A stretch of DNA of 46,250 bases from a virus: the IMG/VR virus record IMGVR_UViG_3300020578_002188, positions 1-46,250 of that record. One strand, given 5' to 3'. Made by a program: the position numbers and the translations under genes. A model generated the notes under the pieces. It did not search any database. It was not told the DNA's origin and saw only the letters and a list, made by a program, of their open reading frames with translations. Below are positions 211 to 35,700 of the stretch, piece by piece (positions within the stretch are counted from its first letter, which is position 1; each line of letters opens with the position of its first letter).

Positions 211-561
211 ATGGAAAATATAGTAGTAAACGGAATTGAGTACACTCCAGTAATTAAAGAAACTCAAATAATTAATATGCATTATCATTTTGAACTTTCC
301 TTGGAAAGATCCTATGAAAAATTAACATGGAAAGAGGCTGTAGCATATGTAAATAGTTTAGGGGATGGTTGGAGATTACCTACTATTGAGGAATGTTTTA
401 TGATTTACCATAATAAACTTATAGATAAGGGTTACTATTGGAGTAGTACAGAATTTTTTGATAATGTGTACATTTTCAATTTTGAATACGGAAAAGTTTT
501 TGATAATAGAAAAGAGTTTGATTATTATGTATTTGCTGTAAGAGACATAAAATCAGAATAA
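211..561 (+). CDS. DUF1566 (Lcl C-terminal domain) protein
   Basis: The 116-aa protein shows the usual marks of the DUF1566/Lcl_C family. It has a W-x-x-A segment followed by GDGWRLPT (about residues 51-58), then YWSST about 20 residues later, and a closing AVRDI. In bacteria this domain is found in secreted or surface proteins and in C-type-lectin-like folds. In phages it occurs in small accessory or receptor-binding proteins. This one consists of almost nothing but the domain and has no signal peptide. It sits in a run of small accessory genes, two bases after one gene and one base before the radical SAM gene. Its role in the phage is unknown. A diversifiable ligand-binding role is possible, but no template or variable repeat is visible nearby. 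Confidence 0.7.
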   Translation: MENIVVNGIEYTPVIKETQIINMHYHFELSLERSYEKLTWKEAVAYVNSLGDGWRLPTIEECFMIYHNKLIDKGYYWSSTEFFDNVYIFNFEYGKVFDNRKEFDYYVFAVRDIKSE

Positions 562-562
562 G

Positions 563-1435
563 ATGGTAATTGAAAAAGTTACTAGAAAATCTATGATTAT
601 AAGACCATCAGGCAGGAGCACAGATTTTATTGCTCCTTCCTTTGGTCATGGCTGTTTGTATAACTGTACTTACTGTTATATGAAGAGACATAAGCCGGAA
701 GGATTATCTGTAGCTACAAATACTATGGATATCCTGACAGAAATTAACTCACATGCATATTTTTCTACAGTAGAGAAACCAAATCAAACAGGAGAGTATG
801 TAACTTATGATATCTCTTGTAATGAAGACTTTGCTCTGCATGCTAAATATCATGATTGGAAAACAATTTTTGCATTCTTTAGAGATCATCCACTTGCTAT
901 GGGTTCATTTGCTACTAAATGGGTAAACAGAGACTTTCTAGAATTTAGACCTGAAGGTAAGATTAGAGTTAGATTCAGTTTAATGCCTGAAGAGTACAGA
1001 AAAATATTAGAACCCAACACTCCAGAAATTAAAGACAGACTTTATGCTGTATGGGATTTTTTAGCTTGTGGGTATGAAGTTCATCTTAACTTCAGTCCAG
1101 TAATTGTACATGATGACTGGATACAAAAATATAGACAGTTGTTTATGTTAGTTGATACATACTCTAAAATAATGAATTGGAGAGTAATGGATGCTCCTGT
1201 TAAAGCTGAAGTAATATTCCTTACTCATAATGAGCAGAAACATTTGTATAATCTTGAACATAAGTTACCAGGAGAAGATTTACTTTGGGTACCCAAAATA
1301 CAAGAGAGTAAAGTATCTCAGTATGGTGGTGAGAATATCCGTTATGAACATAACAAAAAAGCTGATTATATCAAACAGTTTGTTGAGTTACATGATGAGA
1401 TAATACCTTGGAATACAATTAGATACATATTTTAG
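563..1435 (+). CDS. splB: Radical SAM enzyme of the spore photoproduct lyase family
   Basis: The 290-aa protein carries a CX3CX2C cluster (Cys31, Cys35, Cys38, within SFGHGCLYNCTYCYMKRH) that would bind a 4Fe-4S cluster and S-adenosylmethionine. The surrounding residues match the spore photoproduct lyase family. In characterised SPL a further Cys about 43 residues after the third cluster Cys donates a hydrogen atom during repair of the thymine dimer 5-thyminyl-5,6-dihydrothymine. Here Cys86 (in YDISCNED), 48 residues on, is the likely equivalent. The protein is somewhat shorter than the roughly 340-aa Bacillus enzyme, mainly at the N terminus. It acts on DNA in the cytoplasm. Together with the glycosylase at 3.2 kb it suggests a DNA-repair set. 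Family assignment is strong; the substrate is inferred. Confidence 0.87.
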   Translation: MVIEKVTRKSMIIRPSGRSTDFIAPSFGHGCLYNCTYCYMKRHKPEGLSVATNTMDILTEINSHAYFSTVEKPNQTGEYVTYDISCNEDFALHAKYHDWKTIFAFFRDHPLAMGSFATKWVNRDFLEFRPEGKIRVRFSLMPEEYRKILEPNTPEIKDRLYAVWDFLACGYEVHLNFSPVIVHDDWIQKYRQLFMLVDTYSKIMNWRVMDAPVKAEVIFLTHNEQKHLYNLEHKLPGEDLLWVPKIQESKVSQYGGENIRYEHNKKADYIKQFVELHDEIIPWNTIRYIF

Positions 1436-1437
1436 CT

Positions 1438-1716
1438 ATGACACTTAGAGATACAGAACTAATAGGTAAAAGACTTGTAAAGTATGGATTTTTTAGATCA
1501 CTTGCAGACCATCAAGACTATAGAACTCTTGGTTCTATGGGTAATATAAGTATAAAGTTTAAAAAGTTTGGAACTACATGGTGTGCAGTAATAACTCATA
1601 CTATGGATTTAAACTTTGAAGTCAGATATACTTATTATGGTGAAGTATTTACTCCAGAATGGGTAGTAGAAGAAAACAAGAAATTTCAAGCAATGTTTAA
1701 ATTTTTAAGATCATGA
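1438..1716 (+). CDS. Hypothetical protein (92 aa)
   Basis: Not recognised. The sequence is mixed alpha/beta, with several Trp and Tyr residues and a central strand-rich part (about residues 35-70). It starts two bases after the TAG of the SPL-like gene and its stop overlaps the next start as ATGA (1713-1716), a typical translational coupling. It has no membrane segment and no catalytic motif. It is probably a small accessory protein of the early region. Confidence 0.65.
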   Translation: MTLRDTELIGKRLVKYGFFRSLADHQDYRTLGSMGNISIKFKKFGTTWCAVITHTMDLNFEVRYTYYGEVFTPEWVVEENKKFQAMFKFLRS

Positions 1717-2111
1717 TAAAGAATTTTAGTGATCCAAAGATTAAGAAATTAATCAAGGATATTTGCAATGAACATTGGGAAGTTGCAAAATCAAATGACA
1801 GTAATATTGGATATTTATGGTATATGTATGCAGCAGGTACCAAAGTAGGAACATTCAGACCATTTATTTTCTTTGCAGAGTTAAACTTACTTGTTAAGAC
1901 AGGTTATATTACTGAAGAAGCAATGAATAATATGTTTGGGATGTTAGATAGTTCAGATGAAGATAATGCAAACCTAATGGCTCTTGCTTTATTAACTTTT
2001 AGAAATAATAGGATAAAAAACCTAGGTGTTTATACTTTAGATAATGATAAATACAAGGAAATTGACTATATTAGAGATGTCATGTCTACTTACTTATTTA
2101 CAGGACGTTAG
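1713..2111 (+). CDS. Hypothetical protein (132 aa)
   Basis: Not recognised. Mostly helical, with aromatic-rich segments near residues 25-50 and an acidic stretch around 80-90. It is coupled to the upstream gene through the ATGA overlap at 1713-1716. It is followed by a short spacer and a 41-codon ORF. There is no recognisable motif. Confidence 0.65.
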   Translation: MIKNFSDPKIKKLIKDICNEHWEVAKSNDSNIGYLWYMYAAGTKVGTFRPFIFFAELNLLVKTGYITEEAMNNMFGMLDSSDEDNANLMALALLTFRNNRIKNLGVYTLDNDKYKEIDYIRDVMSTYLFTGR

Positions 2112-3178: not shown

Positions 3179-3877
3179 ATGAATTTAGAAGAAATTAAAC
3201 AAAAAATGTTTAATAAACTTGAATCTAGTGGTTGGGATAGAATTTTTAAATCTTTTATATTTAGTAGTGAATTTGATGACATACTCACAAAGTTATATAC
3301 TCTAAGTCAAGAAGATAAAAGATTTACTCCACCACTAAAACAAGTGTTTAGAGCATTTGAAGAATGTCCGTATGATAATTTACAAGTAGTTATTATAGGA
3401 CAAGATCCTTATCCACAGTTAGGTATAGCAGATGGAATAGCATTTAGTTGCAGTAATACAGATAATTTACAACCTAGTCTTAGATATATTCTAGGAGAAG
3501 TAAACAGAACTGTATATAATGGTCATGAAATAAGCACTGATGTTGACTTAAAAAGATGGGCTAATCAAGGTATACTTATGCTTAATACAGCTCTTACAGT
3601 TGAAGTAAACAAAATTGGTAGTCATTATGATATATGGAAACCATTTACTGCTTATCTATTGGATTATTTAAATAACTATAATCCCGGGTTAGTTTATGCA
3701 TATTTAGGTAAAAAAGCTGAAGAATGGTCAGATTTAACTACAAATACAGAACATAAGTTTTTTGTAAAACATCCTGCTAGTGCAGCTTATAGTGGATCTA
3801 AATGGGATAGTAATGATATATTTAATAAAATATCAACTGTTGTAAAGAATACAAGTGGTAATGAAATAACGTGGTAA
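3179..3877 (+). CDS. ung: Family 1 uracil-DNA glycosylase
   Basis: This enzyme excises uracil from DNA. The water-activating motif GQDPY is at residues 74-78 (Asp76 catalytic). It is followed by the family continuation G-x-A-D-G-x-A-F-S, and the central LNTALTV block matches the LLNxxLTV segment of Ung. The C-terminal motif is HPASAA (His198), equivalent to HPSPLS in cellular enzymes. At 232 aa the length is normal for family 1. The residue after GQDPY is Pro rather than the usual His, and the second motif is degenerate, as in other divergent phage Ungs. The gene starts the replication run and is followed one base later by the next gene. A phage-encoded Ung indicates that the phage DNA uses thymine, not uracil. 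Confidence 0.92.
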   Translation: MNLEEIKQKMFNKLESSGWDRIFKSFIFSSEFDDILTKLYTLSQEDKRFTPPLKQVFRAFEECPYDNLQVVIIGQDPYPQLGIADGIAFSCSNTDNLQPSLRYILGEVNRTVYNGHEISTDVDLKRWANQGILMLNTALTVEVNKIGSHYDIWKPFTAYLLDYLNNYNPGLVYAYLGKKAEEWSDLTTNTEHKFFVKHPASAAYSGSKWDSNDIFNKISTVVKNTSGNEITW

Positions 3878-4647: not shown

Positions 4648-5655
4648 ATGTCAGAGCAATTTAACGGGGCTAAACCTTTACTACCAATTAGTGAAAGACA
4701 GGCTTTAGAAAAAGCATTAATTAAAATGAAAGCTAGAAGAGAAGGTAGATTACCTTCTTTAGTAAGTGCTTGGCCCAAGTTTAATGATGCTTTTTGTGAT
4801 GGATTAGAATGGAGAACTATCACCTTAGTAGGTGCTAGACCTGGAACAGGTAAAACTTTATTTATGGAACAATTAATCAGTGATATCATTGTTATGAATC
4901 CTGAGCAAAAGTTTAGAGTATTAAAGTTTCAAATGGAAATGGTTGATGAAACCAGCGGAGTAAGAAAATTTAGCTTACAAACAGGTTCTGATTACAATAC
5001 ATTAATGAGTAAGGGAGGAGCTCTTGTAGATAAAGAAGTCTATAAGAAATGTTTAGAGTATTACCAATCTACAGAATTAAAAGATTTTGTGAATGTAGTT
5101 TATGATTCATGTACTATTGATGAGATGTGTGCCACAATCCATTATGAAATGGAAAAGTATAAAAATACTGATGGTACTTACACAAACATGTTAGTAACTA
5201 TAGATCACTCAGCTTTATTTAAAGTTGGTAAAGGACAAAAAGACAAATTTGATATGCTAGGTGCATTGGGTGAAGCCTTGACCCATATGAAGAAAAAATA
5301 TCCTATTGCATTTCTTGTTTTAAGTCAATTAAACAGAAATATAGATGACCCTAAAAGACAAGAAGAAGGCTCTTATGGTAATTATGTATTAGATTCTGAT
5401 ATTTATGGTTCTGATTCTTTATTACAACATGCTGATGTTGTTATGGGTATGAATAAACCTTCTATAAGAAAAATTAGACAGTATGGTCCTGAAAAGTTTT
5501 TAATTGAAGATCCAGATATTTTGGTTTTTCATTTCTTAAAATCTAGAAATGGTACCACAAGAATAAGCTTCTTTAAGCTAGATAGAAGTACAATGAAAAT
5601 AATTGAAATACCCACTCCTCCACAGGCAACTAAGCAAAAAATACAAATAAATTAA
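4648..5655 (+). CDS. dnaB: Replicative DNA helicase, DnaB-like SF4 ATPase
   Basis: The 335-aa protein is a RecA-fold hexameric helicase of superfamily 4. The Walker A motif GARPGTGKT is at residues 62-70. The segment FQMEMV corresponds to the helicase signature after motif 1, a Walker B-type strand ends in TIDHSA, and LVLSQLNRN is the motif 3 region that senses phosphate. The C terminus has the arginine-containing KSRNG segment. It lacks the DnaB N-terminal helical domain and is about 100 aa shorter than cellular DnaB, as in many phage helicases. It would unwind DNA at the phage fork together with the primase at 7784 and the polymerase at 16425. Assignment is firm; whether it needs the protein encoded at 3879 as a loader is unknown. 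Confidence 0.92.
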   Translation: MSEQFNGAKPLLPISERQALEKALIKMKARREGRLPSLVSAWPKFNDAFCDGLEWRTITLVGARPGTGKTLFMEQLISDIIVMNPEQKFRVLKFQMEMVDETSGVRKFSLQTGSDYNTLMSKGGALVDKEVYKKCLEYYQSTELKDFVNVVYDSCTIDEMCATIHYEMEKYKNTDGTYTNMLVTIDHSALFKVGKGQKDKFDMLGALGEALTHMKKKYPIAFLVLSQLNRNIDDPKRQEEGSYGNYVLDSDIYGSDSLLQHADVVMGMNKPSIRKIRQYGPEKFLIEDPDILVFHFLKSRNGTTRISFFKLDRSTMKIIEIPTPPQATKQKIQIN

Positions 5656-10277: not shown

Positions 10278-10696
10278 TGAAGAAGATGATTTTTGATAAA
10301 GATGAGACAAGAAACTTAATTATGATGTTGCAATCTGATGATGCAGATAATCATACTATAGCTTATGAGTCTTTAAAGAATGTTGATTTTGATAAGTATA
10401 TTGGAGAACTGTTTGTTCTTCTTAAGTTTGGTGGGCATGCTATAGCGGACTGGAATGTTGGTTGTAAAAAGATAACAAGTAAGTTAGAGAAACTTATATC
10501 TAACCAATTTCCACTTAGTAGTCCTAAGATATTAAGTCTGATTACAAAACACAAAGGTTCTACAGCTTCGGTTGAGCTATTTATGGAATTCTTTATTAGG
10601 GATATGACAAGGATGTTAGAATCTATTGGCTATCCTACAGATAAATTTGAGATAAACATTAAATTTAAAGATGATGGACAAACAACAAAGTCTTAG
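10277..10696 (+). CDS. Hypothetical helical protein with SDxxDNHxxAxE motif, upstream of the VWA gene
   Basis: The 139-aa protein begins with about 60 residues that include LIMMLQSDDADNHTIAYES, followed by FDKYIGELFVLLKFGGHAI. The same kind of block recurs inside the 437-aa protein encoded at 13080-14393, on the other side of the VWA-MoxR pair. In Bacteroidota a similar L-x-S-x-D-x-x-N-x-x-L-A motif heads leucine-rich or HEAT-like repeat proteins, so a short helical repeat involved in protein contacts is likely. The 3' end overlaps the VWA gene by 26 bases. Function unknown; an adaptor for the VWA-MoxR pair is a guess from position. Confidence 0.65.
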   Translation: MKKMIFDKDETRNLIMMLQSDDADNHTIAYESLKNVDFDKYIGELFVLLKFGGHAIADWNVGCKKITSKLEKLISNQFPLSSPKILSLITKHKGSTASVELFMEFFIRDMTRMLESIGYPTDKFEINIKFKDDGQTTKS

Positions 10697-11852
10697 TAAA
10701 ATTGGTAAAGAGTTAATGTTGAAAGAGCCCTATTATGGGTTCTTTCTTATTGCTCTAAATAAAGTCTGGGGTCAAAAAGTTCCTACTGCCGGAGTTAGCA
10801 AGAATGGTATTAATTATCAGCTTGCTATTAATCCTGAGTTCTGGGAATCTTTAAGTGATAACCACAGACTTGGATTATTAAAACATGAATTGTTACATAT
10901 TGCATTTGGACATCTTACAATGTTCTTTAAGTTCAGTGATAGAAGACTTGCAAATGTAGCAATGGATATGGAGATCAATCAGTATATTAATACAGAATAT
11001 CTACCTGAAGGTGGTATTGATATAGATAACTATGAAGATCTTAATCTTGATAGAAAAGCTGGTTGTAGATATTACTATGACAAACTTAAGCAACTTCAAG
11101 ATGAAAAGAAACAAAATGGTACTTGTGGTAATGCACCTATGGATAATTTATTGGATGCTATAGAAAATGGTGAGACAGATGATCATTCTACATGGGAAGA
11201 GTTTGAAGACATGACTGAGGCTGAAAAGAAGTTAATTGAAAAACAATTACAAAAAGTTCTTAGTGATGCTAAAGAACAAACCATTAAGAAAAGAGGCACT
11301 GTTCCTGGAGAAATTGAAGGAGTAATTATTATTGAAGAGGTTGTTAAACCTAAATTTAACTGGCGGGGTTATATCAGAAGATTTACTGGTGTTAGTACTA
11401 AAGTATTTACCAAGAAAATCAGAAGAAAAGAGAACCGTAGATTTGAAGCTAATCCAGGTCTTAAAGTAAAAATGAGACAACATATGTTGTTGGCTATTGA
11501 TACTTCAGGATCTGTAAGTGATGCTGAGTTACAAGAATTTATGAGTGAGATATATCATATTTACAAATGTGGTGTAGATATTACTGTAATTCAATGTGAT
11601 ACAACTATTAGATCTATTGAACCTTATAAAGGTAAGTTTGAAATGGCTGTACAAGGTAGAGGTGGGACTGAATTTGATCCTGTCCTAGAATATTTTAACG
11701 CCAACCTAAAGAAATATACAAGCCTGGTATATTTTACTGACGGAGAATGTAGTTATTCTGTAAGACCTAAAGCTAATACTCTATGGGTTTTATCAGAAAG
11801 ATCTTATATGAATCCAAAGTTACCAGGTAAAGTTATTAAATTAGAATTATAA
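10671..11852 (+). CDS. VWA-domain protein with N-terminal HExxH putative metallopeptidase (DUF2201 type)
   Basis: The 393-aa protein has two parts. The N-terminal domain carries HELLHIAFGH (His72-Glu73...His76, with His81 five residues on), the zinc-binding signature of the DUF2201 putative metallopeptidase domain. The C-terminal domain is a von Willebrand factor A fold with a complete MIDAS: DTSGS at 277-281, Thr333 in GRGGTEFDP and Asp357 in YFTDGE. A linker rich in Glu and Lys separates them. Proteins of this type pair with MoxR AAA+ ATPases, which is exactly the next gene (11863, 10 bases away). Such pairs remodel or mature partner complexes. The target here is unknown. Start is at 10671 or 10674; both overlap the upstream gene. 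Confidence 0.88.
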   Translation: MMDKQQSLSKIGKELMLKEPYYGFFLIALNKVWGQKVPTAGVSKNGINYQLAINPEFWESLSDNHRLGLLKHELLHIAFGHLTMFFKFSDRRLANVAMDMEINQYINTEYLPEGGIDIDNYEDLNLDRKAGCRYYYDKLKQLQDEKKQNGTCGNAPMDNLLDAIENGETDDHSTWEEFEDMTEAEKKLIEKQLQKVLSDAKEQTIKKRGTVPGEIEGVIIIEEVVKPKFNWRGYIRRFTGVSTKVFTKKIRRKENRRFEANPGLKVKMRQHMLLAIDTSGSVSDAELQEFMSEIYHIYKCGVDITVIQCDTTIRSIEPYKGKFEMAVQGRGGTEFDPVLEYFNANLKKYTSLVYFTDGECSYSVRPKANTLWVLSERSYMNPKLPGKVIKLEL

Positions 11853-11862
11853 AAAAAGAGTT

Positions 11863-13032
11863 ATGAGTCAAGTACAATTAAATGTTAATGAGTTAAAGAG
11901 TTTTATTAAACACATGGTTAAGAATAACCAACATATTCAGTCTGAAGGTAAAGTTCCTGTGGCTATAAATATTGAGGGTGATGCTGGTCTTGGTAAGACT
12001 TCAGCAATCATGCAGTTGGGTAAAGAATTGAATATGGAAGTTGTAAAGCTGAATTTATCTCAGCTGGAAGAATTAGGTGACTTAGTTGGTTTTCCTGTAA
12101 AAGAATTTCAAATACAAAATGCTGAAGGTAAAACTACCTGGATTAATGAATCTCAGATATCTGCAGCTAGTGCTAAAGGTTATAAAGTTGTTGGTAAGAG
12201 AATGTCACATGCTGCTCCTGAATGGATTCAGGGTAAAGGTGAGGGTGGTTTCTTAATTCTTGATGACTATACTCGTGCTGATGCAAGATTTATGCAAGCA
12301 ACTATGGAGATCTTAGATAGACAAGAATATGTTTCTTGGAAGTTACCTAAGAACTGGCATGTTATTTTGACTACTAACCCAGATAATGGTGACTATAATG
12401 TTACCTCTCTTGATGTTGCTCAGAAGACTAGATTTATTTCTGTAGAGTTAAAGTATGATTCTGATGTATGGGCTAAGTGGGCAGAGAAAGCAAACATAGA
12501 TGGTAGATGTATTAACTTTATGTTGATGCACCCAGAATTAGTAACTCAAAGAGTTAATCCAAGAGCAATTACTACTTTCTTTAATGCTATTAGTTCTATT
12601 GATAAGTTTGAAGCAGACTTGCCTTTAATTCAAATGATTGGTGAAGGTTCTGTGGGTGTAGACTTTAGTTCAATGTTTACTATGTTTATTAATAATAAAC
12701 TAGATAGAATAATTAGTCCTGAAGATATCCTAACCAAAGATGAGCAGTATGTTATGAACTCTCTTACTAATGCAGTAGGTAAAGATGATGACTTCCGTGC
12801 TGATATTTCTAGTGTTATTGCAACCAGAGTAATTAACTATTCTCTTACTTTGGCTGACAAAGGAACAGTAGGTAAACCAATTATTGATAGGATAGCTAAA
12901 CTTACTACAGACTGTGATGCATTTACTAATGATCTTAGATATTATATGGTTAAAGAGATTGTCAATGGTAATAAAGTTAAGTTTAGCCAATTGATGATGA
13001 ATCAGGAAGTGGTGAAGATGGCTGTAAAGTAA
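11863..13032 (+). CDS. MoxR-type AAA+ ATPase
   Basis: The 389-aa protein has Walker A GDAGLGKT at residues 39-46, a Walker B strand FLILDDYTRAD around 129-139, and a sensor 1 strand VILTTNPD around 167-174. A helical lid follows, with HPELVTQRVNPRAIT, where the Arg residues may act as sensor 2. This is the organisation of MoxR-family ATPases, which act as ATP-driven chaperones with VWA partners, as in RavA-ViaA. The upstream gene encodes a VWA protein, so a functional pair is very likely. A perfect 9-bp hairpin closes the unit nine bases after the stop. The cargo of the pair is not visible from sequence. Confidence 0.88.
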   Translation: MSQVQLNVNELKSFIKHMVKNNQHIQSEGKVPVAINIEGDAGLGKTSAIMQLGKELNMEVVKLNLSQLEELGDLVGFPVKEFQIQNAEGKTTWINESQISAASAKGYKVVGKRMSHAAPEWIQGKGEGGFLILDDYTRADARFMQATMEILDRQEYVSWKLPKNWHVILTTNPDNGDYNVTSLDVAQKTRFISVELKYDSDVWAKWAEKANIDGRCINFMLMHPELVTQRVNPRAITTFFNAISSIDKFEADLPLIQMIGEGSVGVDFSSMFTMFINNKLDRIISPEDILTKDEQYVMNSLTNAVGKDDDFRADISSVIATRVINYSLTLADKGTVGKPIIDRIAKLTTDCDAFTNDLRYYMVKEIVNGNKVKFSQLMMNQEVVKMAVK

Positions 13033-16424: not shown

Positions 16425-18323
16425 ATGAAAACACATTGGGTACATGACTATGAAACAATGGCTAACTTATTTGTAGCCGTGTTTGAAGATGTAAAATCTA
16501 AAGACAGAAAAATATTTATCTGTCACAAAGCAAAAAATGATATAGAAGAACTAGTTAATTTCTTAAACAGAAATAAAAACTTTAATGAATGGCATGTAAG
16601 TTTTAATGGTCTTGGTTTTGACAGTCAGATTACTGAATATATACTAAGAAAACAAGTAGACTTATGTAACATGTCTGGTGAAGAAGTAGCAAAGTATCTA
16701 TATGGTAAAGCACAAAATGTAATATCAAAACAAAATGCAGGTGAGTTTCTAGAATTTAGTCCGCGGGATCTACAGATAAGACAAGTAGATGTGTTTAAAC
16801 TTAATCACTGGGATAACCCAGCAAAAAGATCTAGTCTTAAATGGATACAGTATACTATGGATTGGAAGAACATTATGGATATGCCTATTCATCATACTAC
16901 TGAAGTAGAAGAGGACCAGATTCCGGATATTGTTAGTTACTGTATTAATGATGTTAAGTCTACTAAACAGATTATGCATCTAAGTAAGGAGCAAATTAAT
17001 TTAAGAAGAGCTCTAACTGAAGAGTATAACATAGACTTATTCTCTGCTTCTGAACCTAGAATATCTAAAGAATTGTTCTTACATTTTTTGAGTAAACAAA
17101 CTGGAATAAAAAAAGCTGAGTTAAGACAAATGAGAACTCAGAGAAATCAAATAATATTTAAAGATATAATCCTCCCTTATATTGAATTTAAGACAGCTAC
17201 ATTTCAAAACCTTTTAAAAAAGTTTCAGGACGTAATATTATATCCTGGAGAAACTAAAGGTGGTTTTAAATATTCTGTTCAGTATAAAGGAGTGAAGACT
17301 GATTATGGTCTTGGTGGTATTCATGGTGCTAGAACTAGCAAAGTATATAATGCCACTGATGATATGATTATTATGACTTCAGATGTTACTAGTTTCTATC
17401 CTAATCTAGCTATTAGAAATGGATGGTCTCCGGCACATTTACCTAAAGTAGAATTCTGTGAGCTATATGAATGGTTCTTTGAAGAGAGAAAGAAAATTCC
17501 AAAGAAAGATCCTAAGAACTATGTATACAAGATTATTCTAAACTCAACTTATGGTTTATCTAATGATGAGAATAGTTTCTTGTATGACCCACAGTTTACT
17601 ATGAGCATTACTATTAATGGTCAGTTGTCTTTAACTATGTTATATGAGATGATTTGTGAAGAGATACCAAATGCCATTCCCCTAATGCAGAATACAGATG
17701 GTCTTGAAACTATGATTCCAAGAGAATATGTAGATAAATACATGGAAATTTGTGAAAGATGGGAAAAGATTACTAATCTACAACTAGAACATGACAAGTA
17801 CTCTAAGTTAGTATTAGGTGATGTAAATAATTACATAGCAGTTACTGAAGATGGTAAGTCTAAATGTAAAGGTAGATTTGAGTATAAAGATCTAGCTCTT
17901 CATAAAAACAAAAGTTTCTTGATTATTCCTAAAGCACTACATGCATACTTTGTTGAAGGTATTAAACCTGAAAAGTTTATAGCTGAAAATTTAAACATTT
18001 TTGATTTTTGTGGTGGTGTTAAGATTAAAGGTGATTGGAAATTTTATAAACATGAAATAGTTTCCGGAGACTTTATACTAGAAGAATTACAAAATACTAT
18101 TAGATATTATATATCCAATAAGGGTTGTAAGATCATCAAGAAGAATAATGAAGACTCTAGAGAAATACAAGTAGAGGCTGGAAGATGGTTGCAAAAACTA
18201 TATATAAATGCTGATGAGAAAGCATTTGAAGACTATGATATTAATTATGATTACTATTTAGAGAAGATTAAGAGAGAAATTAATTCTCTAGAACCAAATA
18301 CAAATCAATTAAGTTTATTTTAA
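16425..18323 (+). CDS. DNA polymerase, family B
   Basis: The 632-aa protein has both 3'-5' exonuclease and polymerase parts. Exo I is HDYETM (Asp8, Glu10), Exo II is FNGLGFDSQI (Asn61, Asp66), and Exo III is YCIND (Tyr172, Asp176). Polymerase motif A is DVTSFYPN (Asp320), motif B is KIILNSTYG (Lys369, Tyr376), and motif C is NTDG (423-426). Motif C normally reads DTDS; the second Asp is kept (Asp425) while the first is Asn and the Ser is Gly. The spacing from motif A to B is short (about 50 residues), so the fingers are minimal, and there is no sign of a TPR2-type insertion. It would replicate the phage genome. The next gene follows one base after the stop. Confidence 0.92.
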   Translation: MKTHWVHDYETMANLFVAVFEDVKSKDRKIFICHKAKNDIEELVNFLNRNKNFNEWHVSFNGLGFDSQITEYILRKQVDLCNMSGEEVAKYLYGKAQNVISKQNAGEFLEFSPRDLQIRQVDVFKLNHWDNPAKRSSLKWIQYTMDWKNIMDMPIHHTTEVEEDQIPDIVSYCINDVKSTKQIMHLSKEQINLRRALTEEYNIDLFSASEPRISKELFLHFLSKQTGIKKAELRQMRTQRNQIIFKDIILPYIEFKTATFQNLLKKFQDVILYPGETKGGFKYSVQYKGVKTDYGLGGIHGARTSKVYNATDDMIIMTSDVTSFYPNLAIRNGWSPAHLPKVEFCELYEWFFEERKKIPKKDPKNYVYKIILNSTYGLSNDENSFLYDPQFTMSITINGQLSLTMLYEMICEEIPNAIPLMQNTDGLETMIPREYVDKYMEICERWEKITNLQLEHDKYSKLVLGDVNNYIAVTEDGKSKCKGRFEYKDLALHKNKSFLIIPKALHAYFVEGIKPEKFIAENLNIFDFCGGVKIKGDWKFYKHEIVSGDFILEELQNTIRYYISNKGCKIIKKNNEDSREIQVEAGRWLQKLYINADEKAFEDYDINYDYYLEKIKREINSLEPNTNQLSLF

Positions 18324-23200: not shown

Positions 23201-23725
23201 TATTTCATCTAGTATAGAATACCCATTAATAAAATCATTTATAGCAGATAATTTTCCTATTACTTCTTTAGGATCTAGAGTTTCTTTATTTTTTAAAAGA
23301 TAAGCCATTTCTAAAGATGCCTTTCTGGATTTTTCATAAGCATCATCTACAAATAAGTAAATAGATTTAACACCTTCTGCAACCTTTACTTCTTCAATAA
23401 GATCTCTGAGTTTTTTCTTTTTATATTCTTTATTAGTAATGACTTTATTTTGAAGAGTAGCATATTGTTTTTCAAGATATAATATTACACTATCAACTAA
23501 ATTACCAAAATCTCTAGGGTCTGATTCTTCTTCATCAGTTTTTGCAGCTTCAGCTTCTTCAGCAAAGTCTTCTGTTTCATCTGAAAATGTAAGTGTATCT
23601 GGAGTACCATCATCTAGAAGATCTTGTTCTAACAACCAAGCTTCAAATGCAGCTGATTCATTACCATTAGCTTCTGCTAAAAGTCTTTTCCAATCTTCAC
23701 TATCTTTATTAGGGCAGGCTAACAT
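20273..23725 (-). CDS. Large virion-block protein (1150 aa) with one membrane segment
   Basis: Not assigned to a family. It starts MLACPNKDSEDWKRLL, an opening seen in large polyvalent proteins of crAss-like phages. The first 450 residues are helical and strongly charged (coiled-coil-like), the centre (about residues 480-950) is mixed, and near residues 1004-1023 there is a hydrophobic helix (AEATIILTTIALIMLI) followed by an acidic GDDDDK turn. The single membrane segment near the C terminus fits a protein ejected into the host envelope. It overlaps the polymerase giant by 7 bases (23719-23725), so they are coupled. In phi14:2 and crAss-type phages, genes next to the RNA polymerase encode capsid or tail cargo proteins; this is the basis for a cargo call. 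Confidence 0.8.
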   Translation of the reverse strand: MLACPNKDSEDWKRLLAEANGNESAAFEAWLLEQDLLDDGTPDTLTFSDETEDFAEEAEAAKTDEEESDPRDFGNLVDSVILYLEKQYATLQNKVITNKEYKKKKLRDLIEEVKVAEGVKSIYLFVDDAYEKSRKASLEMAYLLKNKETLDPKEVIGKLSAINDFINGYSILDEISKADLDNYFTADSITNRVPGQPLTPQQKIIEMKGIHETIKQKVLTEGIPLIADFLLEYKGPDITNRLESDMTVLDQRISDIENSNLSDEKKAERIAQLEERKEKFKSFNLDREGLIKMLKVANKDEDVFDFLVGPLISSHDASLGLFAKAIKGGLEEARLKDIVMERTVAETFEDYLRTQSNRDNPAKFNEGIYETIEIPIKNKDGETEYIKTYAFVQKYDVTKFNKARNQMLEAIGEEPVLSEKPTFEEKQALKAWRSQRAAWYRKNTQAKPISEINKIIEEKQLELSKRIITDDEYSDWLKSVKHERNGVVTYMRELSEPSNDYLNANWTALYNLDGTPKNAKGEYHKKMLDIYLEAQEKLPEVQRRGYILPSVVKTDGERLQQEGIVKTVKTKAREAVKMQAYDTEYGLAGLGITEAKFIPVYYTQIMPTEDMSLNIARSVMLFNSMANRYEALNKINSEISLFQTVIGDRQVLKTNSLGKPVLDAFAKKLGYEEYIKKNGESFSQKHVDAFIDMVVYGEMQKSEQLFGLQIDKIVNNLMGYSAITSIAADLLKGVANNMQANIQVMIEANAGEFFNKKNLMKGKAYYTKSVPGFISDFSKSAPTNLATRLFDYYDAIQGNFKDQYGRNITGSMANKLFSTNTLFFNQFFGEHEVQGSTMFALMDATKVLDNENGEIITLLQAHEKYGVELDGKIKILQVDANQEPIKDDTGEYIAFNYDEKQRLNFQSRLHALNKRMHGVYNEFDKGTIQRGALGRLLLMYKKHLVPGYKKRWKKLGMDQELGAPTEGYYITFYKTFVRDLRDYKFNIMKNWASYSPFEKAQIRRVIAEATIILTTIALIMLIRSMMGTGDDDDKLTESQKAARDNYIYNFVLYEATRMRSETSSYINIVDAYRVVKSPSAMTGTLNRAIKFTDQFIFTWNPEKLSYQKDTGVWNKGDNKSWAYFLKLMGFSGYNFTPGEAVKSFESTFFN

Positions 23726-26700
23726 AATTTTTTAAGTATTTCAGTTTCTATTTTTAACAACTCTTCTTGTGTTTTAGCTTTTTGTAAATTTAATAATACA
23801 TCATTAGCATCTATACCTTTTTCAGCTAAAATTTCATCTATAGGCATAGTCTTACGTAAATTTGTAAACTGATCTATTAGAGCTTTTCTTTTACTTTCAT
23901 CTACAGGAGTAGTAGTTGCTTCTTCAACTAGACCAGATTCCATATTTACATTTCTTAATAGTATAGTATTTTCATCTACAAGATCATATAAGTTTCTAGA
24001 ATTTTTAATCCAAGTTCTTGTACCAGTAGGTAAACTTACAATAAATTTATTTGGTAATACTCCATCATTATCTTTTAATGCTGCTTGGAATACTTTCATA
24101 TCTTCTTCTTGTATTGTAGGTTCACCAGTTGATGTTACTGGTTCTACAGTAGGTTGACCGGATACAAAGTTTTTAAATCCTTGTATATCTTCTGTTCCTC
24201 CAAGTATATATATATTTTTTACATCAAATACTCCATATGAATTAGATAATAAAGGATCTACAATGTTTTCATAAATAACACCATCATTTCCATTTTTAAG
24301 TGCATCAGCAACTTGTTTTGCAGCAAAAGCAGCTGTTCTTGTTTTTGTATTTTTGTATACATCAGGAAATGCTGATCCTTCATAATCATGAACAGATGGA
24401 TTTTGTAAATTTAAAAGAACAGGCATTGCCTTTTCTTCAAAACCTACACTTTTCATATCCTTTTTTACTTGAGCATAAGTATTATTATCTTCAGCAATTG
24501 CAGCATTAATAAAGTCTTTAATCTTATCATTAGTAACTTCATCTGCATAAAACCTTTCTGCCGTTAATACAGTTTTTCCTTTATCAAATCTAGCAAATTC
24601 TGTTCTGTTACCTTTTTTAAAAATCCTAAAGTTACTTGTTGAATTAGTAAAATCAATGTCATTATTTTTTTTAAATATATCAATATTAGACAAAAACTTA
24701 TTAAGAGTTTTTAATGAATTCTCTGTACTAGCTAATGTGTTTGTAAAAAGTGAACTAGAGCCCTCTTTATATTTTCTAGCTAATCTGGTTTCTTCTTTTC
24801 CTAATAAATCAATTATTTCTTTAGTAGTTTTACCTTCTTTTTTTGCTTTATCAATAAGATTATTAAAATAAGGAACTCCTTTTAAAACTTCTACAGCATC
24901 TTCTACATAGTCTTTTACACCACTTCTTACATTTTGTAAAGCATCTAAAATTTCAGATAAATATCTATCTCTACCTAACAGTGTATAACTAATAGCATTT
25001 GTTTTTCTATCTGAAAAGAAAATAGTATTTGCTGAATCACTAAGGAATTGCTCAGATTTATCTTCTGATTGATATGTAATTATACCAGTGTTTGTTCCTT
25101 TTTTATCTTCATCAAACTCTTCAAATACTTCATATGTACCATGATAAAGTATATCAGTAGCTTGTGTACCTGCTAGTTTACCTTGAGTAGTAAGATAGTT
25201 AATCCAATTACTATACTGTTCAGGTGTTCCTATAGTACTTAATACTGGTTTAGATTCAAATAGTTCTGATACTCCTGGTTTAATAAAAGATTCACCTTGT
25301 ACAAACTCTTTAAACCCTTCTATATCTTGTTTACTACCTAATTCATGTAAATTTTTTGATGTTGTAGCATATACATTACCTGATTCTTTTGTTCTGCCTT
25401 TATCTGTACCTTTTAATACCAAATCTTGTGGTTCATTTTTTACAGATTCAGTATTCATTTCTCCCACATTCTTCACATTAGCCGTATTAATTAGAAATGT
25501 GTTTACTATTTCCTTTTCACTTTTAGATACAAACCCTTTGTCAAAAGCATATTCTTTTGCATAACTTAATTTATCAGTAAAAAACCCTCTTGTCTGAAAA
25601 TCAGTTCTTCCTTTTTCACTACCTCTGTAAACTATTGCATTATCAGGGAATATAGTGTCAAGATATCTAGAGTATTGTTGTGCAGTTCCTATATTAGCTA
25701 ATTCAGGATTAGATTTAAATAGTTCTGCTACTCCTTCTTTAACTTCTCCTACTGGTACAGTAGGTTGAGTAGTAGCTTTAAATGTATTAGCATATACATC
25801 TCTAATAGCTTGTTTACCAGCTTCATTAATTTCTCTAGTGCCTATGCCTGCAAAGTTTTTAGTAAGAGTTGGTACTTCAGATTTAGACCATTCACCATTA
25901 ATATTTTTATACCATTGATTTCTTACTTGGTCAAATACATATACAGGTTTACCAGCTTGTATAGCCATTTCTACAGCATAACCTGTTCCACCTTGCACTG
26001 CAAACTTGAGAAGTTTTCTTGGTTCAGCAGATTTCTCATCTCCTTTCCAGATATCACCTTCTTTACCTAATGTACCAATAGCAAATACTGCATCTGAATT
26101 AGCAACCTGAGCCCAATTTCTAATCAGTCTCTGGTCTTTCATTGTGTTATACTTGTAACCCCACATTTGTTTAGCAGCCTGAGCAACTTTACTTGCTCCT
26201 TCTACAGCTATTGGTTCATCTGTAATATCTACGTTTCCTAATGGTGCATTTTTTGGACTTTTTACCCCAGTATAGTAATGGTTATTATTTACCATTCCAA
26301 ACTCTTTACCAATAACATCCCACTCAGTATCAGAGCCGTTAGCTCCTCCAGAATGATTAGTATATTCTGCTGGATTGTTTGTAGCACTTACAGGAGCTTG
26401 GTTAGCTTTTAAAGAATCTTGATAAGATCTGATAAGAACTTTAATAAAATTGCTATCAGTTCCTTTACCTTCCCATCTGCTACCTTTTACTCCTACAGTA
26501 TGTTCAGAAGCTTCTAAGAAAGGCACACCACCTCTATCTGTTATTTCTTTAACCAATTCTGGATGAGCCTTAAACTTTTTCATCTGAAGTTTATACATAA
26601 GATTCATATCATATCTTAATGCTTCTTCTGCATTAAGATTAGGAGCTTTTATTTTAGAAGCATTTGCTTTATATTCAGCTTCTATATCCATAATATTTTT

Positions 26701-29700
26701 AGCACCCCAGTTAGGATTTGTTAACTCTCTACCCAGCTTATCAGATGATTTAGTACTAATATTTATACCAACTACTTTACTTGCAGGAGTTCTCCCTGGT
26801 TTAACAGAAGATTTAGGATATACTTCATCAGCTAATAACATCTTTTTACCAGTTGCTAAGTCTACATTTTGTATGTAAACTTCTTTTGTGGCATTATCTA
26901 TCATATCATAATAACCATATGAGTTTAGATTCCACTGTGCACTTTCAGGCATAGTTTGTCTTTTACCCGTTACATTATTATAAAATTCTGTAAATAAAGT
27001 TTTTGGAGTAAAGAATACTTTAGGTTTAATGTTATTACTCTTACTTAAGTATGTGTTATAAGAAGCAATGTCTTCTGCAGACATAATAACAGGACCCTCT
27101 GATAAACCAGTTAATAAATCAAATGACTCTATAAATTCATCTTTTACTTCTTTAGCATGAAAACCTTTTAAAGGAACAGAATAGTTCTTGAACATTTCTT
27201 CACTTACAACAGTATCATATATTCTATTTAAAATTTTATTTGTATCCTCTGGAGATATAAAATAATTTTTAAAGAAATCATCTACTGCATAACGCATTAA
27301 TTTTTGATACTGTTCAGGATCTAAAGCTTTTGTAAATCCAAATTTAGTAGGTCCAACCCCATGCTGATAAAACATCATTAATGAGAACTCATTAAATAAG
27401 TCTGATATTCTTTTATTTAATTCTGGATCATCAACTTTTTTAATAGTAACATCTCCTAAGTTACGCAAGTTAGAGTAATATATTTCTGCTAACTGTCCTT
27501 TTACAAGCTTTTTATTATTTAATTGTAGAAGTTTTACATTAGCTCTTCTTGTTTCAGCAGGTGCAATCTGTGATAATATAGGATACTCTGATTTTACTTT
27601 ATCTGATAAACCTCTTATAAGATCAAGTATAGTATCTGAATAACTATATTTAGTAGAGCCCATTATATAAGCTTTATTATAACTATCTCTTAAAGCTTTT
27701 TCAGATAACCATGCTTCATACGCATCTTCAGGAATATTACCTAGTTTACTTAAAAACTCTTTATATGCTAAATCATTTTCTAAGGATTCAATAGGATTTT
27801 TAACTCTTAACGCCTCTCTTTCTAAAACATATCTATAGTAACTATTTAAATTTAAGAAAGGATTTTGATTAGGTTTAAATACATCTAGACCTTGTTCTGC
27901 ATAATTTCTAGCAGTAGTGTTTCCTTCTAAAAATACTTTATTATTAAAGTCATCTTCAATAGCTTTTGTATTTATGATCATTACACCATTTTCTACAATA
28001 GCATCAAAGTCTGCATTATCATCTATTAAAGTAGGAAAGCCTCCGACTTCAGGGCCCACATTAACTAATTTACCATCTTCATTTTGAAAATTAGAAATAT
28101 AGTTTTGATATATAAAGTTAATTACACCATTATTATAAGCTTTAGTAAAGTTTTCTTGTCCCTTTATACCTGTTCCAAATTTTGATTTTATAAGTCTTCT
28201 TTCCTGAACTATTTTGTCTGATATAAAAGTACTGATGTCAACATTTAATCTTAAAGGAAATAATGGTAATATTAAATCTAATATTAAATCATCTACATTA
28301 AATGAAGATACTACAGAGTCTTTAGTTAATCTTTCAAAGGTTCCATTGTCTATTTTACTAGACTTAGCAAGCATTTTATAATTACTTTTTCTTTGTCTTA
28401 CTTGTTGAGTTGTAGTTAATGTTGAAGTATCTGGAGCAAAAGACTGTTGTAAGTTATCCATTCCTTCAAATTGTTTTTCTAACTCAATAAAGTTCATGAA
28501 TAATGCCAGTGATTTTAAACTTGAACTATCATTTGTTGATATGCCATCATATAAAGTTTCTAACCTAATATCACCTGCGGGTAAATAAGTTCTTGATAAA
28601 ACTTCTGTTGTAAAAGGAATTGTTGAATTATCTAATAAATCTCCTACCTCACTAGCAGATTTATATAGTATTATATTATACTTATCTTCTGATTTGTTAT
28701 AAAGAAATATCTTATCTACCTCAGTTATTTTTTTAGAGTTTAACTCATTTGCTAAATCATTTATTGATAGTAATCTTCCTTTACTTGCATTAGGGGTTAT
28801 AACAAATACATTTTGATCTTCTAACTTTCTAACTGTATTAATAGCAGCTCTTAGTTTTTCACGGTTTACCTTATTTAGTAAATCAGTTTTTTGTCCATCA
28901 TTTAATGTGTCTAATATAGGTATTGCAATATCATATAGAGCTGTACTCTTAACCTTAGAAGCTTTTTGACCATTTATAATAGTATAGTATGCACTATTCA
29001 TTAATCTTTGGTCTTCCATGTATTTTTTAATCAAAGGTTGATTAACAAACATGAATACTTCTTCTTCATTTACTCCTGCTTGTATTAAGTAACTAATTAC
29101 ATTAATACCTTCTGGAGTCATCTGTAGATCAAAAGGAAAAGGATTTTTTGCTCTATCTAATATACCATTAAGATTATGTGAGTTTAAGTCAGTAATTCTA
29201 CTACCCTTCTGTGTTTTTTCTCCGGATAATGAAATTACTAATTCACCTTTTTCATTTCTAACTACATTATGTAAAAATCTCATTACTAAAGGTAGTTCCA
29301 ATGGTTTTATAATTAACTCACCTGTATCTAAATTAAAGAACTCATCTTTATATGTATTAGGCATTTTAGCTCCAATGGTTTTAAATATAGTATGGTTCTT
29401 TGTTATTTTAGCTTGTATACCTAATGAAGGCTCTAAAGATAAATTAGCAGCATGTTTATACAAGTTATAGGTTGCCTCTAATAATCTTGTAGGACTTATA
29501 ACTGTTTTTCTTTTTCCATCTTTATCAGGAGCTGATTTATTAGGCTCAATATTTCCTGGGTTTTTATATCTATCATAACCACTTCTTGTTTTCTCTAAAT
29601 ACGGTATATATTTATCTACCAAGTGAGTCAAGTTTGGTGTAACTAGATATGCATAGTTTTCAGGAAGAGCTAACAAAGATGTATGAGTTTCAATATATTT

Positions 29701-32700
29701 ATTTTGTAAATATCTTTTCTGTTGCTCTATTAATTGTTCAGAACTTATTTCAGGAAGTTTTTCAAAATCTTCTTTAGTTAATTTTTTATTAGAAGCTTTC
29801 TTTTCCTCAAACTGTTTCTCAAGTTCTTGAGCTTTCTTTAATTTATTTTCAAAATCAGAAATTCCTTTACTAATGTAATTACCATCTTTATCAATGTTAG
29901 CCATTGCAAAGAAAAGTTTATCACCATCAAAGTCAGAACCAGCTTTAGCAACTATTTCTGTAGGAACAATAACAGTATTACCAAATGCAGGATCTACAAA
30001 ATGCCATACTTCAGCACCTTCTATAGTATTTGTAGCATCATTTGGAATTCTTGGTCCACCTATAGTAATTGCTTTTCTATTATTACCTGTATTCAACCAT
30101 TCCTCATCTTTAATAAGTTCATTAAGTCTTTCAATGGTACCTATTTTTTGACCTTTATATACTTGGTTTAAAAGATTATTATAAGAACCCTGTAAACTAA
30201 TTGCTACTTTCATCATTTTTGTAGCTGCTCTTTCACCAGTTTCTTTATTTATAATCTCTCCTCTTAAATAAAAAGGTAGAGTGTTAGATCCTAATAATTT
30301 TTTTCTTTCTTCTGGATCTGTTACATTACTAAATTGTGTGTCCCACCAACCATTTGTAAATGATGTAGGTGCTTGCACCAGTGGTTCACCATTAGTTTTT
30401 TGTTTAATTAATCTTTTTTGAATTACACTCATTAACAACTGTTCAATATCCTGAGACTCAGGATGAATAGAAAGATCCATTGTTAACTGACCATCCTCAG
30501 TTGTATTTATTAATTTAACTAAGTGATTAGGTATATCTTTTGCTGCTAATTCTTCTCTTATAAATTCAACAAAGTTTTTAAGATTACCTTCATATCTTTT
30601 AGTTTCTTCATTATACACATAACCTATTTCATTTAATAGATCTGATTGTAATAACTTTGTGTAATCTTTAATAGTATTTAAATAACTATCTATTATCTGT
30701 TTATTATTTTCATTTTTTATCTTACCATTTTCAAACAAGTTATCTAAAATAATAGCTCTTGTTTGTGTAGCTATTGGAAGCTCACCTTTAAACTCATCAT
30801 TAATTACAGTAACTTCTTTTAAATTAGCTAAGTAAATTGGATTTAATGTAAATTCTACATCATCAGAGATAGCTTTTTGTTGATCTGAAGCAAATATATT
30901 ATCTAGTTTACCTGTAGAAGTTAAGTTAGCAGCTTTAGATCCAGAACCAAATGTAACATATTGTACATTTTCTCTAAGCATTTTTTTATGAAGCTTATCT
31001 AATTGAGAACCTTCTTTAGCATTAACACCTGGAATTAAAGGCATAACAGAAAACTTATGCATTGCTGTAGTAGCAATTAAGTCATTCTTTAGTGCACCAA
31101 AATAATGTAATTTATAAATAGGAAAGTACTGAGCAGCCTCCGCTTGAGTAACTTTTTCACCATTTATAATCTTTTGATATAAGTTCTCTTGAGCTATAGA
31201 CCATCCTCTACCTGTTTTATGTAAAGCTCTATATGCATCTATTGTCATATAAGCCATACCATCACCTTCAGTCATTTTCTCAAATGCTTCAGCATTTAGT
31301 TTTGTAAAATACTCTGCAGTTTCATTATCATATGTTTTAGAAAACTCTTCTTTCCAAGCAGCTTTCATATCATCTAGATATATACTTTTTCTTTCTATAT
31401 CTTGAATAACAGCAGTATTTAATATGTCTGAAAAAACATAATTATCATAGTTTATTTTACCATTAGTTTTTGCAGTCTCTATTGCAGCATATGTTCTTAG
31501 CTTTTCTACCTTTTGACCTGACTCATTTTTAATTTCATAAGGTGCATTAAATGTATTATTAATAAAATCTTGAGTGCCTTGATCATATAAGAAACCTGTA
31601 CCATCTGATGTAGCTCCTGGAATCCTTTTAGACCAATCTTCTTTTGCATGATCCCATTGAGCAAAATCACCAAACATTATTATAGATGTTTCAAACTTAT
31701 GTATCCAATCATTATAAGCATAAGCTTTAATAATATTATCTGTTATAGTCTTATTATTTCTTATTGCTTTAAGTTCTTCTGATGTAGGTGACTCAGAAAG
31801 TTTAACACCAGCTTTTCTTAAAAGAGACTCAGATAAATAAGGAACATCTTGATAGTAAGTTTTAGAATAATCAGAAACTAATTCATTAAAATAATTTTTA
31901 AAATCATTAGATACTAGACGTGCTAACTCTCTATCAGTTTTTAATGAAGTTCTTAAATTAACATTTATATTTTCTTCAATAAGATTATATAATTTGGTTT
32001 TAGTCTCCGGGCTCAGTACAGTATCAAATGCACTAAATACTTCTCCGGCATAAATCTTTTTACCATTAACTTCATCTACTACTCTATTATAACCTGTAAT
32101 TTTTAAAAGCTCATTTCTTTGTGATCCTTTAAACTTTTTTATTCTATCAAACTCTCCTTCTAAGTAACCAGAAAGATATTCAACTATAGCATAATTTTCT
32201 CCCTTGTTACCCTCAAAGAACATATTGATATCTACATACAAGTTTTTATCAGCACCCTTCTCAAGAACTAATCCATTTTCTATTCCACCTATAACTCTAA
32301 AACCTTGTGAAAACTTTTTCTCAGAAATACGCGGTAGTTCTGCCCAGCCTGCAAGAAGCATACTATGAATCTCTTGTAGGAACTTGGATTTATCATCTAG
32401 TTCAGTAGTAGTATTACCTAGATCATCATTTATATTAGTACCATCTACAGCAATAGCTTCAATATATCTACCTTTTTTTCTATCACCATTTTTTTCATAT
32501 CTATCAAATATACTATTCAGTATTTTTAAATGTCTAGTATAAGTATTTATAGTAGGGTCAAGATAACTCATATAAGAATACTGCTTTTCTTGCCATAGAT
32601 CTGTTATTTTTTCTACATTATTAAGAGCATCTAATCTAGCAGAATAAGTACTATAGTTTATGTCTTCATATCCTGTATTACCATTAGATCTAATTACACC

Positions 32701-35700
32701 TGCTGTAGCTGAATCATATCCATATTTACCTTGTAATTCAGCAAGTCTTCTTAACTGAGTATTCTCATTAAAGTCCTCTTTTATTATTCCTGTAAATACA
32801 TCTTTTGGTACAGTTGTTTTTAAAGTCTCAAGTGGGTTTAATCTAAATTTATCTAAGTATTCTTTTTGAAGTGGGGTTAATGTTTGACCTGCTTGTTCAA
32901 GTAACTGTAGTTCATTAAACTCTATTACAGCATCAAATATATAAGGTAAACCATAGTAATCAGAGTTTTTATCAAGTTCAGAAATTATATTTTTGTTTGT
33001 ATCTAAACCAATACCTATAGCTTGAGCAAACTCTAAAGATTTAGATTTTTTTAAGTTCCCGCTTTTTTCTCTAAACTCAGATACAATTGCATTTAAATTT
33101 AAAGAAGAAACATTATTTGCACTCTTATTTATATATGGAGTTTTAGGAGAACTCTTAAATTCAGAAATCCATCTACCTTGTATAGAACTAATAGATAAAG
33201 AAGCTTGTACAGATTGTAAATCAAACTCACCATTATCACTTAGTGTAGCAAACAATTGCATGTATTTAACTTTAGCTTTACCAAAGTCTTGTAAGAATTG
33301 TCTACTTATATCAAATTCATAAGTGTTTCTTGTATTTGGTTCAGGATATTTACTTTCAATTAATTGTTTAATTTCCGGAAACTTTTCTGCTTCTCTAACA
33401 AGAGCATCATAAGCTTTTTGTCTATCTCTTATACCACCAATAGTTTTTGCTACAATATTAAATATCTTAGAAAAATCAGCTCTTTGTTTAAATCCAAATC
33501 TATCTACAGGAGTGTTTCCTTGAGAATCTACTTTAAACAAACTCTTTAATATATAAGCTGTTTCTTTACTCATTAATTGTTGTAGAGAAACCTTGCCCTT
33601 TAAATTATCATTATTTATTTCTAGTTGGCTTGTAACACCATCACCAACTTTTGTTTGGTCAATTGTATTACCATCAGCATCTACTGTTTCTGTATAATCT
33701 GTTTCATACTTTTTCTTTGCTACTTCATAGTCAGTATTTTCTAAATAGTATTTAATAACACCAGATTTATTATCTCCCCAGTTACTAAGAGTTAATTGCA
33801 GTATTCTAATATTATCTAGTATTAGAGCTTCATCTTCAGATAAATTTAAATTAGGCTGTAAAGCTTTTTGATTAAGCTCAAATCCTGTATAAGCTTTTGC
33901 CTCACCTTTTACATAGTTATTATATTGTACTTCAGCATCCTCTAAATTAGATACTACAATTATATCTACAGGTTTACCATTCTCATTTTTAATTTCTTTA
34001 TGCTTATAAAAATCAGAAACAATTTTTATAGTACCTGCATATGATTCACCTTTTACTCTTTCACCTTTCTTTAAAGAAGGATCAAGTTTAGAAAAATCTA
34101 AAATTTGAGAAGCTAAGAATACATATTTATGATCACCTTTTTTATTAGTTAATTTGGCAGATGCATAGTCTTTTATATTCTGTAAAGTAGATAACCCATT
34201 AAAATCAAAATTTGGTTTTAATTTATTTAGTTTATCTTTTTCTGTTTTAAGTTTTTTTTCTAAAACCTCTCTAACTTCATTTAATAGTATTTCTCTTCTT
34301 TGAGTTTCAACAAGAGTAGCTATTGTTATAGCTTTAGCTCCGGGAACATTTTTATATTTCTTATATCTTGCATCTATAATTTCAGCAATTATAGAATCTA
34401 TTGCAGATACTAATTGTGTACTATCTTGTTTACTAAGTACATCTTCTCTAGGGTTTTCTACATTTCTTACACCTCTATCTAAAGAGAATAGTTCAGCATT
34501 AGATATAAGAGGTTTATAACTATTTAAATTACCAACTCTCAAATTGTTAAACAATTCTTTTGCCATTGGTGAATTTAATGCATCTATAGTAACATCTTTT
34601 TTGTTAAACTTCTTAAGAAATTTACCTAATAAAGCTTTTAAGAAATTTAATATTTGTCTAAATATAGTATTTTTAACCGGAGTTTTAGTTTCAGGTTTTT
34701 CAGTCTTCATGTAGTTTCTGAAATCTTCTGCTAACTTTTCCTCTAATTGTCTTATTTCTGCTGTAGAGTAACTATAGGTTTCCCCATTTTCTAAAGTGAA
34801 GGTTCCCTTTAAAGATCTCATCTCATTATATAGATCAGTCTTTTGTTGAGGAGTTAAGAATAATTGTGAGAAAGCATGCCATGCCTCATGATATATTGTT
34901 AGATTTTGGAATACACTACCTTTCTGAACATTATAATTTATCTTACCAAGTCTATCTGGATTTGCTAAAGTTCCCGCACTTACAATAAAAGTAGCATATA
35001 TATCTGAATTTACTATATTCATTATAGGATTCAAGTCTATTGCATCTCTCATGGCTTTCATTCCAGGACTATTCCACCAATCAATAGACTGTTTTATTTT
35101 CTTTTCACTTATTTTTTCATCTAAGTTTTTTGCTCTTCTAAATAATCCATCTATTAAATCATCAGGTTTATTAGAGTTAGTTGGATTATTATGAGGCTGA
35201 GGAGCTTCTGGCTGAACAATATTTTGTATTATATCAGTACCACTTTTAATTTCAGCACCTTCAACTTTATTATCTATAATGTTATTTATAATATTAATTT
35301 GTTTTTGTGAAAAGTTAGTTATTAATATTAAACTGTCAAGTACTTCTCTAGCAAATTCTTTAGTGTACTGAGAATTCTTTTGTATTTCATTTTTTAATAA
35401 TTTATTTAAATGCCATGACTCACTTGCCAAAATACCTTGACGAGCCATCTCATCAATATATTCTGGTGAAGTTATTATATTATATAATCTTGTTGCTTCT
35501 ATATCAGCTGCAGTAGTAGTATTTACAGGTATGAATTCATCATCAACAGGTTCTTGTCTTTTTTCAGCAATAGGTTTATATAAAACAAGTTCTCTACCTG
35601 CTTCTTCTACATCTTGTTCAATCCAACCAATTAGTGATTCATAGCCATTAGCAATCATAGCTTCTGTTACAGCATCATTGGATTCTTGCATAGACTTAAA

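Follow-up and report, generated by a model that had tools for sequence, protein, structure and literature searches.

A crAss-like phage encodes a radical-SAM protein of the spore photoproduct lyase (SPL) family, and on its sequence and predicted structure this protein is probably (at roughly 60%) an active, phage-adapted SPL of the Cys-bearing TIGR03886 branch that would repair phage DNA independently of light early in infection. The SPL family is already known; its crAss-like phage branch appears to be the new part. The gene is an intact ORF of 290 codons, with an ATG start and no internal stop, and its product is 290 residues long. The window, that is, the whole stretch of DNA analysed, is a virus record of 46,250 bases, and its features are collected in Table 1.

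Table 1. Features of the window that bear on the SPL-family gene (positions are those of the window).
Feature	Position	Strand	Evidence or remark
Upstream gene, Lcl_C domain	211..561	+	domain match; neighbour not conserved in relatives
SPL-family radical-SAM enzyme, TIGR03886 branch, 290 aa	563..1435	+	profile, PDB and predicted-fold matches
[4Fe-4S] cluster motif C31-X3-C35-X2-C38, including Y37 (Y39 at 677-679)	653..676	+	aligned to C90/C94/Y96/C97/Y98 of Gt SPL
Cys86 codon, H-atom donor position (C140 Gt / C141 Bs)	818..820	+	three alignments; invariant 127/127
Glu88 codon, phage-specific change at Ser142 (Gt) position	824..826	+	invariant 127/127
Lys119 codon, equivalent of Lys174 of Gt SPL	917..919	+	alignment
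Downstream small gene	1438..1716	+	accompanies SPL in some relatives; 27/81 lineage-A contigs; absent together with SPL in L324
Small gene (g1713), start of conserved replication block	1713..2111	+	75/81 lineage-A contigs
Uracil-DNA glycosylase superfamily protein	3179..3877	+	PF03167 E 3e-11; syntenic in relatives
DnaB-like replicative helicase	4648..5655	+	PF03796 E 1e-19; beside SPL in lineage B phages
DNA polymerase B	16425..18323	+	phrog_1252 E 4e-143; similar to phi14:2 and others
4674-aa protein with RNA polymerase DFDGD motif	23719..37743	-	matches only crAss-like records among deposited phages, phi14:2 included

The phage protein matches the TIGR03886 profile with an E value of 8e-90 and 301.4 bits, which misses the NCBIfam equivalog cut-off of 437.55 bits, partly because its N terminus is short and the N-terminal 61 model positions are absent; despite this sub-cut-off score, the protein falls within the TIGR03886 clade in a tree. 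It also matches PF20903 (71.2 bits against a curated cut-off of 27, E 9.6e-20), with residues 8-289 lying on model positions 65-337 of 338, and scores 67.5 bits against TIGR04070, the true SplB equivalog, where the threshold of 400 is missed. Both TIGR profiles are matched by 47/47 aligned phage members. When all PDB sequences were searched, by phmmer with the protein and with a profile of the 47 phage members, SPL was the top and almost the sole match, and entries for Geobacillus thermodenitrificans SPL (Gt SPL) were the only clear ones. An AlphaFold model, for which 47 phage homologues were the input (pLDDT 85.6, pTM 0.87), predicts the SPL fold, a partial TIM barrel closest to 4FHC. The six PDB entries that best match this predicted model by Foldseek and VIA-align are all Gt SPL, with Z scores of about 27.5 (27.7 for 4FHF) and an rmsd of 2.4 A over 276 residues, and the next-best family, RlmN, reaches a Z score of 14.0. 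A structure search of BFVD found no SPL-like viral structure, just general radical-SAM matches. The phage protein starts near SPL residue 61 and has no counterpart of the N-terminal ~60 residues found in bacterial SPL; supply of this part by the upstream gene was considered and rejected, since that gene encodes an Lcl_C-domain protein.

The first-pass annotation had proposed an SPL-like enzyme with a CX3CX2C cluster and a likely H-donor at Cys86, and each of these points is supported: sequence and profile matches, the predicted structure and the invariance seen among the phage members all speak for the identity of the enzyme and for the role of Cys86. The cluster reads C31-X3-C35-X2-C38. Alignment with characterised SPL places C86, which lies 48 residues past C38, on the H-donor Cys, and Y37/Y39 on the catalytic Tyr pair Y96/Y98. 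A placing of Cys86 elsewhere, which the annotation had named as a ground for refutation, was not seen. Taken together, C31, C35, C38, Y37, Y39, C86, K119 and S139 align with C90, C94, C97, Y96, Y98, C140, K174 and S195 of Gt SPL, and all eight are invariant in 127/127 distinct viral sequences. The corresponding C141, Y97 and Y99 of Bacillus subtilis SPL form the radical relay (PMC3742179). Three other positions differ from Gt SPL, with S142 replaced by Glu88, A234 by Ser178 and R304 by Gln253, suggesting that lesion recognition may differ; Tyr305 of Gt SPL is kept as Tyr254. Ser142 and Arg304 are conserved in SPL and, from the 4FHD work, are presumably near or in contact with the bound lesion, but the phage protein has Glu88 and Gln253 there. 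At position 88 the bacterial relatives have S, G or T.

The relationships of the gene were examined in a tree of 84 sequences, from a careful IQ-TREE run in which the bootstrap had nearly settled. In this tree classical SPL is split from TIGR03886, and within the latter a Glu at the H-donor position marks one clade (98/96) of Proteobacteria, Deinococcus, Actinobacteria and some Bacteroidota. This Glu is present in 18/18 members sampled (L157-L161, L253-L257, L259-L265 and L272), within the motif YD[LI]GEN[GS]D, and its presence in place of the H-donor Cys makes the annotated function of these 18 bacterial proteins doubtful. The Cys is retained in the rest of TIGR03886, comprising long Bacteroidota genes, short Bacteroidota genes and all phages; as judged from these alignments, the phages are on the TIGR03886 branch that keeps the full SPL catalytic residue set. 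The phage genes form a single clade (100/99) nested in Bacteroidota, with a short Cys-type Bacteroidota group as its sister (100 SH-aLRT in another tree), although some long branches meet and the exact sister could change. This topology is most simply read as one acquisition of the gene from a Bacteroidota chromosome, after which phages passed it to one another or inherited it, and the short Cys-type Bacteroidota genes are likely the source lineage. Several Bacteroidota (L309-L312, L316) carry short Cys-type SPL genes on the chromosome, including one with a transposase-rich genome of 1.9 Mb. In one Bacteroidota genome (L312, 1830-7928), a second short SPL-family copy adjoins a CRISPR array of ~68 repeats; comparison of the spacers of this array with the phage loci analysed gave zero matches.

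That the carrier is a phage, as first proposed, was confirmed by the crAss-type RNA polymerase in the window and by the crAss-type TerL and major capsid protein of most long carrier contigs. Searches with the phi14:2 proteins detected TerL in 14/19 and the major capsid protein in 15/19 of these contigs; both genes lie outside the window fragment. Cellulophaga phage phi14:2 itself gave no match to the SPL gene. TerL identity to phi14:2 ranges from 24% to 42% among carrier contigs, indicating that the carriers span very different crAss-like groups. The relatives of the RNA polymerase ORF are 3300-4740 aa long, compared with 2180 aa for phi14:2 g066. The crAss-like phages of known host infect Bacteroidota and the sister group of the SPL gene is found in Bacteroidota chromosomes, from which we infer a Bacteroidota, and probably non-sporulating, host. 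Origin of the locus as a host gene or prophage was rejected in view of the virus record, the phage replication block and the crAss-type RNA polymerase, and two loci titled as bacterial (L083, L084) have the gene content of phage contigs binned into MAGs. Among 50,697 deposited phage records, no relative was found apart from two doubtful scaffolds, MT835514.1 and MT835770.1 (L401, L402). These are 'UNVERIFIED' fecal 'Bacteriophage sp.' scaffolds with weak matches, and they were rejected as phage SPL, being probably bacterial DNA with a different SPL-like type; their neighbours are an SDR gene, which is beside the SPL-like gene in both, a nucleosidase-like ORF and a sulfate-transporter-like ORF. 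A literature search found no SPL paper dealing with crAss-like phages, and a phage SPL branch with its own active-site signature, widespread in crAss-like phages, was not found described in the literature covered, most subscription journals being outside that coverage.

The spacing of the SPL gene to both of its flanking genes is operon-like (one base upstream, two bases downstream), and the upstream Lcl_C gene is likely on the same transcript. In lineage A, to which the window belongs, SPL is located just upstream of a fixed replication block made up of g1713, g2242, g2495, the uracil-DNA glycosylase gene, g3879 and the genes for DnaB helicase, AAA_24 and primase, and in lineage B it adjoins the DnaB or AAA_24 gene. 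The uracil-DNA glycosylase gene (phrog_12143, with no function given there) gives this region a second base-repair gene alongside SPL. Elsewhere in the window (10671-13032, + strand), a VWA-like metallopeptidase gene (DUF2201) adjoins a MoxR-type ATPase gene, a pair more usual in bacteria. When 80 contigs were collected through the DnaB gene, SPL was nearby in 18, whereas none was nearby in 17 whose upstream sequence extended for at least 4.5 kb; a search of the whole length of these 17 contigs, mostly fragments, returned no SPL, in a run without a positive control but with a query that worked elsewhere. The SPL gene is accessory in crAss-like phages, not all of which need it. Two loci, L319 and L324, resemble filled and empty versions of one site. 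No photolyase domain was found in 20 carrier contigs, most of them incomplete, with control genomes positive.

In the mechanism that we propose, the enzyme would be made early after infection, together with the replication proteins, and would act on the phage genome that has just entered, flipping a thymine dimer out of it. A SAM-derived 5'-deoxyadenosyl radical would then take the C6 hydrogen, leading to splitting of the thymine-thymine bond, and Cys86 would quench the thymine radical, with Y37/Y39 relaying the radical, so that repair would run in the dark and leave the genome uncut. The substrate is likely spore photoproduct (5-thyminyl-5,6-dihydrothymine) or a close relative from poorly hydrated DNA; the former appears likeliest because the phage enzyme keeps the Cys that its Glu-type TIGR03886 relatives have lost. 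Glu88 and Gln253 may leave room for a related lesion. An alternative, for which we would allow a chance well below even, is that these two residues have retuned an SPL-fold enzyme, which would then act on a different thymine lesion or a modified base instead of spore photoproduct: Glu88 is present in 127/127 phage sequences but absent from every bacterial relative sampled, all of TIGR03886 differs from SPL at the position of R304, and the literature search found no demonstrated substrate for members of this family. However, the residues of the SPL radical-transfer path are all kept, including the Cys lost in the Glu-type bacterial branch, and no base-hypermodification genes were recognised in the main ORFs of the window by Pfam and PHROGs scans. 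Base hypermodification as the role of the enzyme was rejected, as the scans of the window ORFs recognised no other genes of such a pathway. The window shows no depletion of TT/AA dinucleotides (observed/expected 1.03).

If spore photoproduct is the substrate of an active phage SPL, the lesion could arise in several ways. One of these, the capsid route of the first-pass annotation, which we regard as rather improbable, is that spore photoproduct forms under UV while the DNA is tightly packed in the wet virion and that the enzyme repairs it after injection. Carrier phages spend part of their life as free particles and have the gene beside early replication genes, both in keeping with such a route, but the DNA inside phage capsids is mostly B-form, the gene is missing from many crAss-like relatives, a literature search found no report of spore photoproduct in phage capsids, and the sequence says nothing on where the lesion forms. 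Formation of spore photoproduct is favoured when DNA is dry, in the A-form or bound by SASP, and by low hydration (PMC3742179, PMC3949526), the last of which also speaks for formation within the capsid. In non-spore-formers the gene has been linked to desiccation and UV (PMC3323433, PMC12029717, PMC3314630): bacterial relatives are under SOS control in alpha- and beta-Proteobacteria (PMC3323433), UV-induced in Curtobacterium (PMC12029717) and present in desert Deinococcus (PMC3314630). Given these conditions and this link, a dried or frozen virion, or a lesion made in the host, is equally as possible a source as the wet capsid. The combined proposal, that Crassvirales-like phages evolved their own SPL branch, with its invariant Glu, for dark and nick-free repair of a lesion from packaged or dehydrated virion DNA, is offered tentatively. 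That the gene is non-functional, or a recently captured host gene without a phage role, as its variable presence among close relatives might suggest, is highly improbable, considering the at least 600 IMG/VR relatives in one scan and 217 in a second lineage, their single deep phage clade, a median dN/dS of 0.16 over 2145 pairs, which indicates purifying selection, and an invariant active site.

SPL is usually treated as an endospore enzyme, with a few annotations in UV-tolerant non-spore-formers, and it is here frequent in crAss-like phages from many IMG/VR samples. Should the phage enzyme be active, a light-independent direct-reversal enzyme would join the known phage repair genes, and the importance of spore photoproduct outside spores would become directly testable in a virus. 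If the phage branch does act on a virion lesion, spore photoproduct or a sister lesion would be a natural viral lesion outside endospores. In addition, many bacterial proteins annotated as SPL family are without the H-donor Cys.

Among known systems, SplB (TIGR04070; Bacillus, Geobacillus; PDB 4FHC-4FHG) shares with the phage protein the fold, CX3CX2C, both catalytic Tyr residues, the H-donor Cys and the SAM-contacting Lys and Ser. The phage protein differs in having ~19% identity to SplB, in being without the N-terminal ~60 residues and in the changes of S142 to E, A234 to S and R304 to Q; moreover, the setting of SplB is sporulation, whereas that of the phage protein is a phage. The TIGR03886 proteins of Proteobacteria, Deinococcus and Actinobacteria are closer (~40% identity), sharing the subfamily signatures NGRS/SGRS, RFSLMP, NFSPV, LTHN and GG-N-RY, and are SOS- or UV-linked in non-spore-formers, but they have Glu at the H-donor position in all those sampled, in contrast to the phage proteins, which have Cys and are missing the N-terminal part. 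The short Bacteroidota TIGR03886 proteins (L143, L289, L290, L304) resemble the phage proteins in length and in the Cys and form their sister group, although their genes are chromosomal, their cluster motif is two residues longer (CRDSYCY) and position 88 is Thr rather than the phage Glu. Phage photolyases and T4 endonuclease V are examples of virus-encoded repair of UV-damaged thymines, as is proposed here. Their targets are cyclobutane dimers, which are dealt with either through light-driven reversal or through incision, whereas SPL chemistry is a direct reversal by a radical mechanism that is independent of light.
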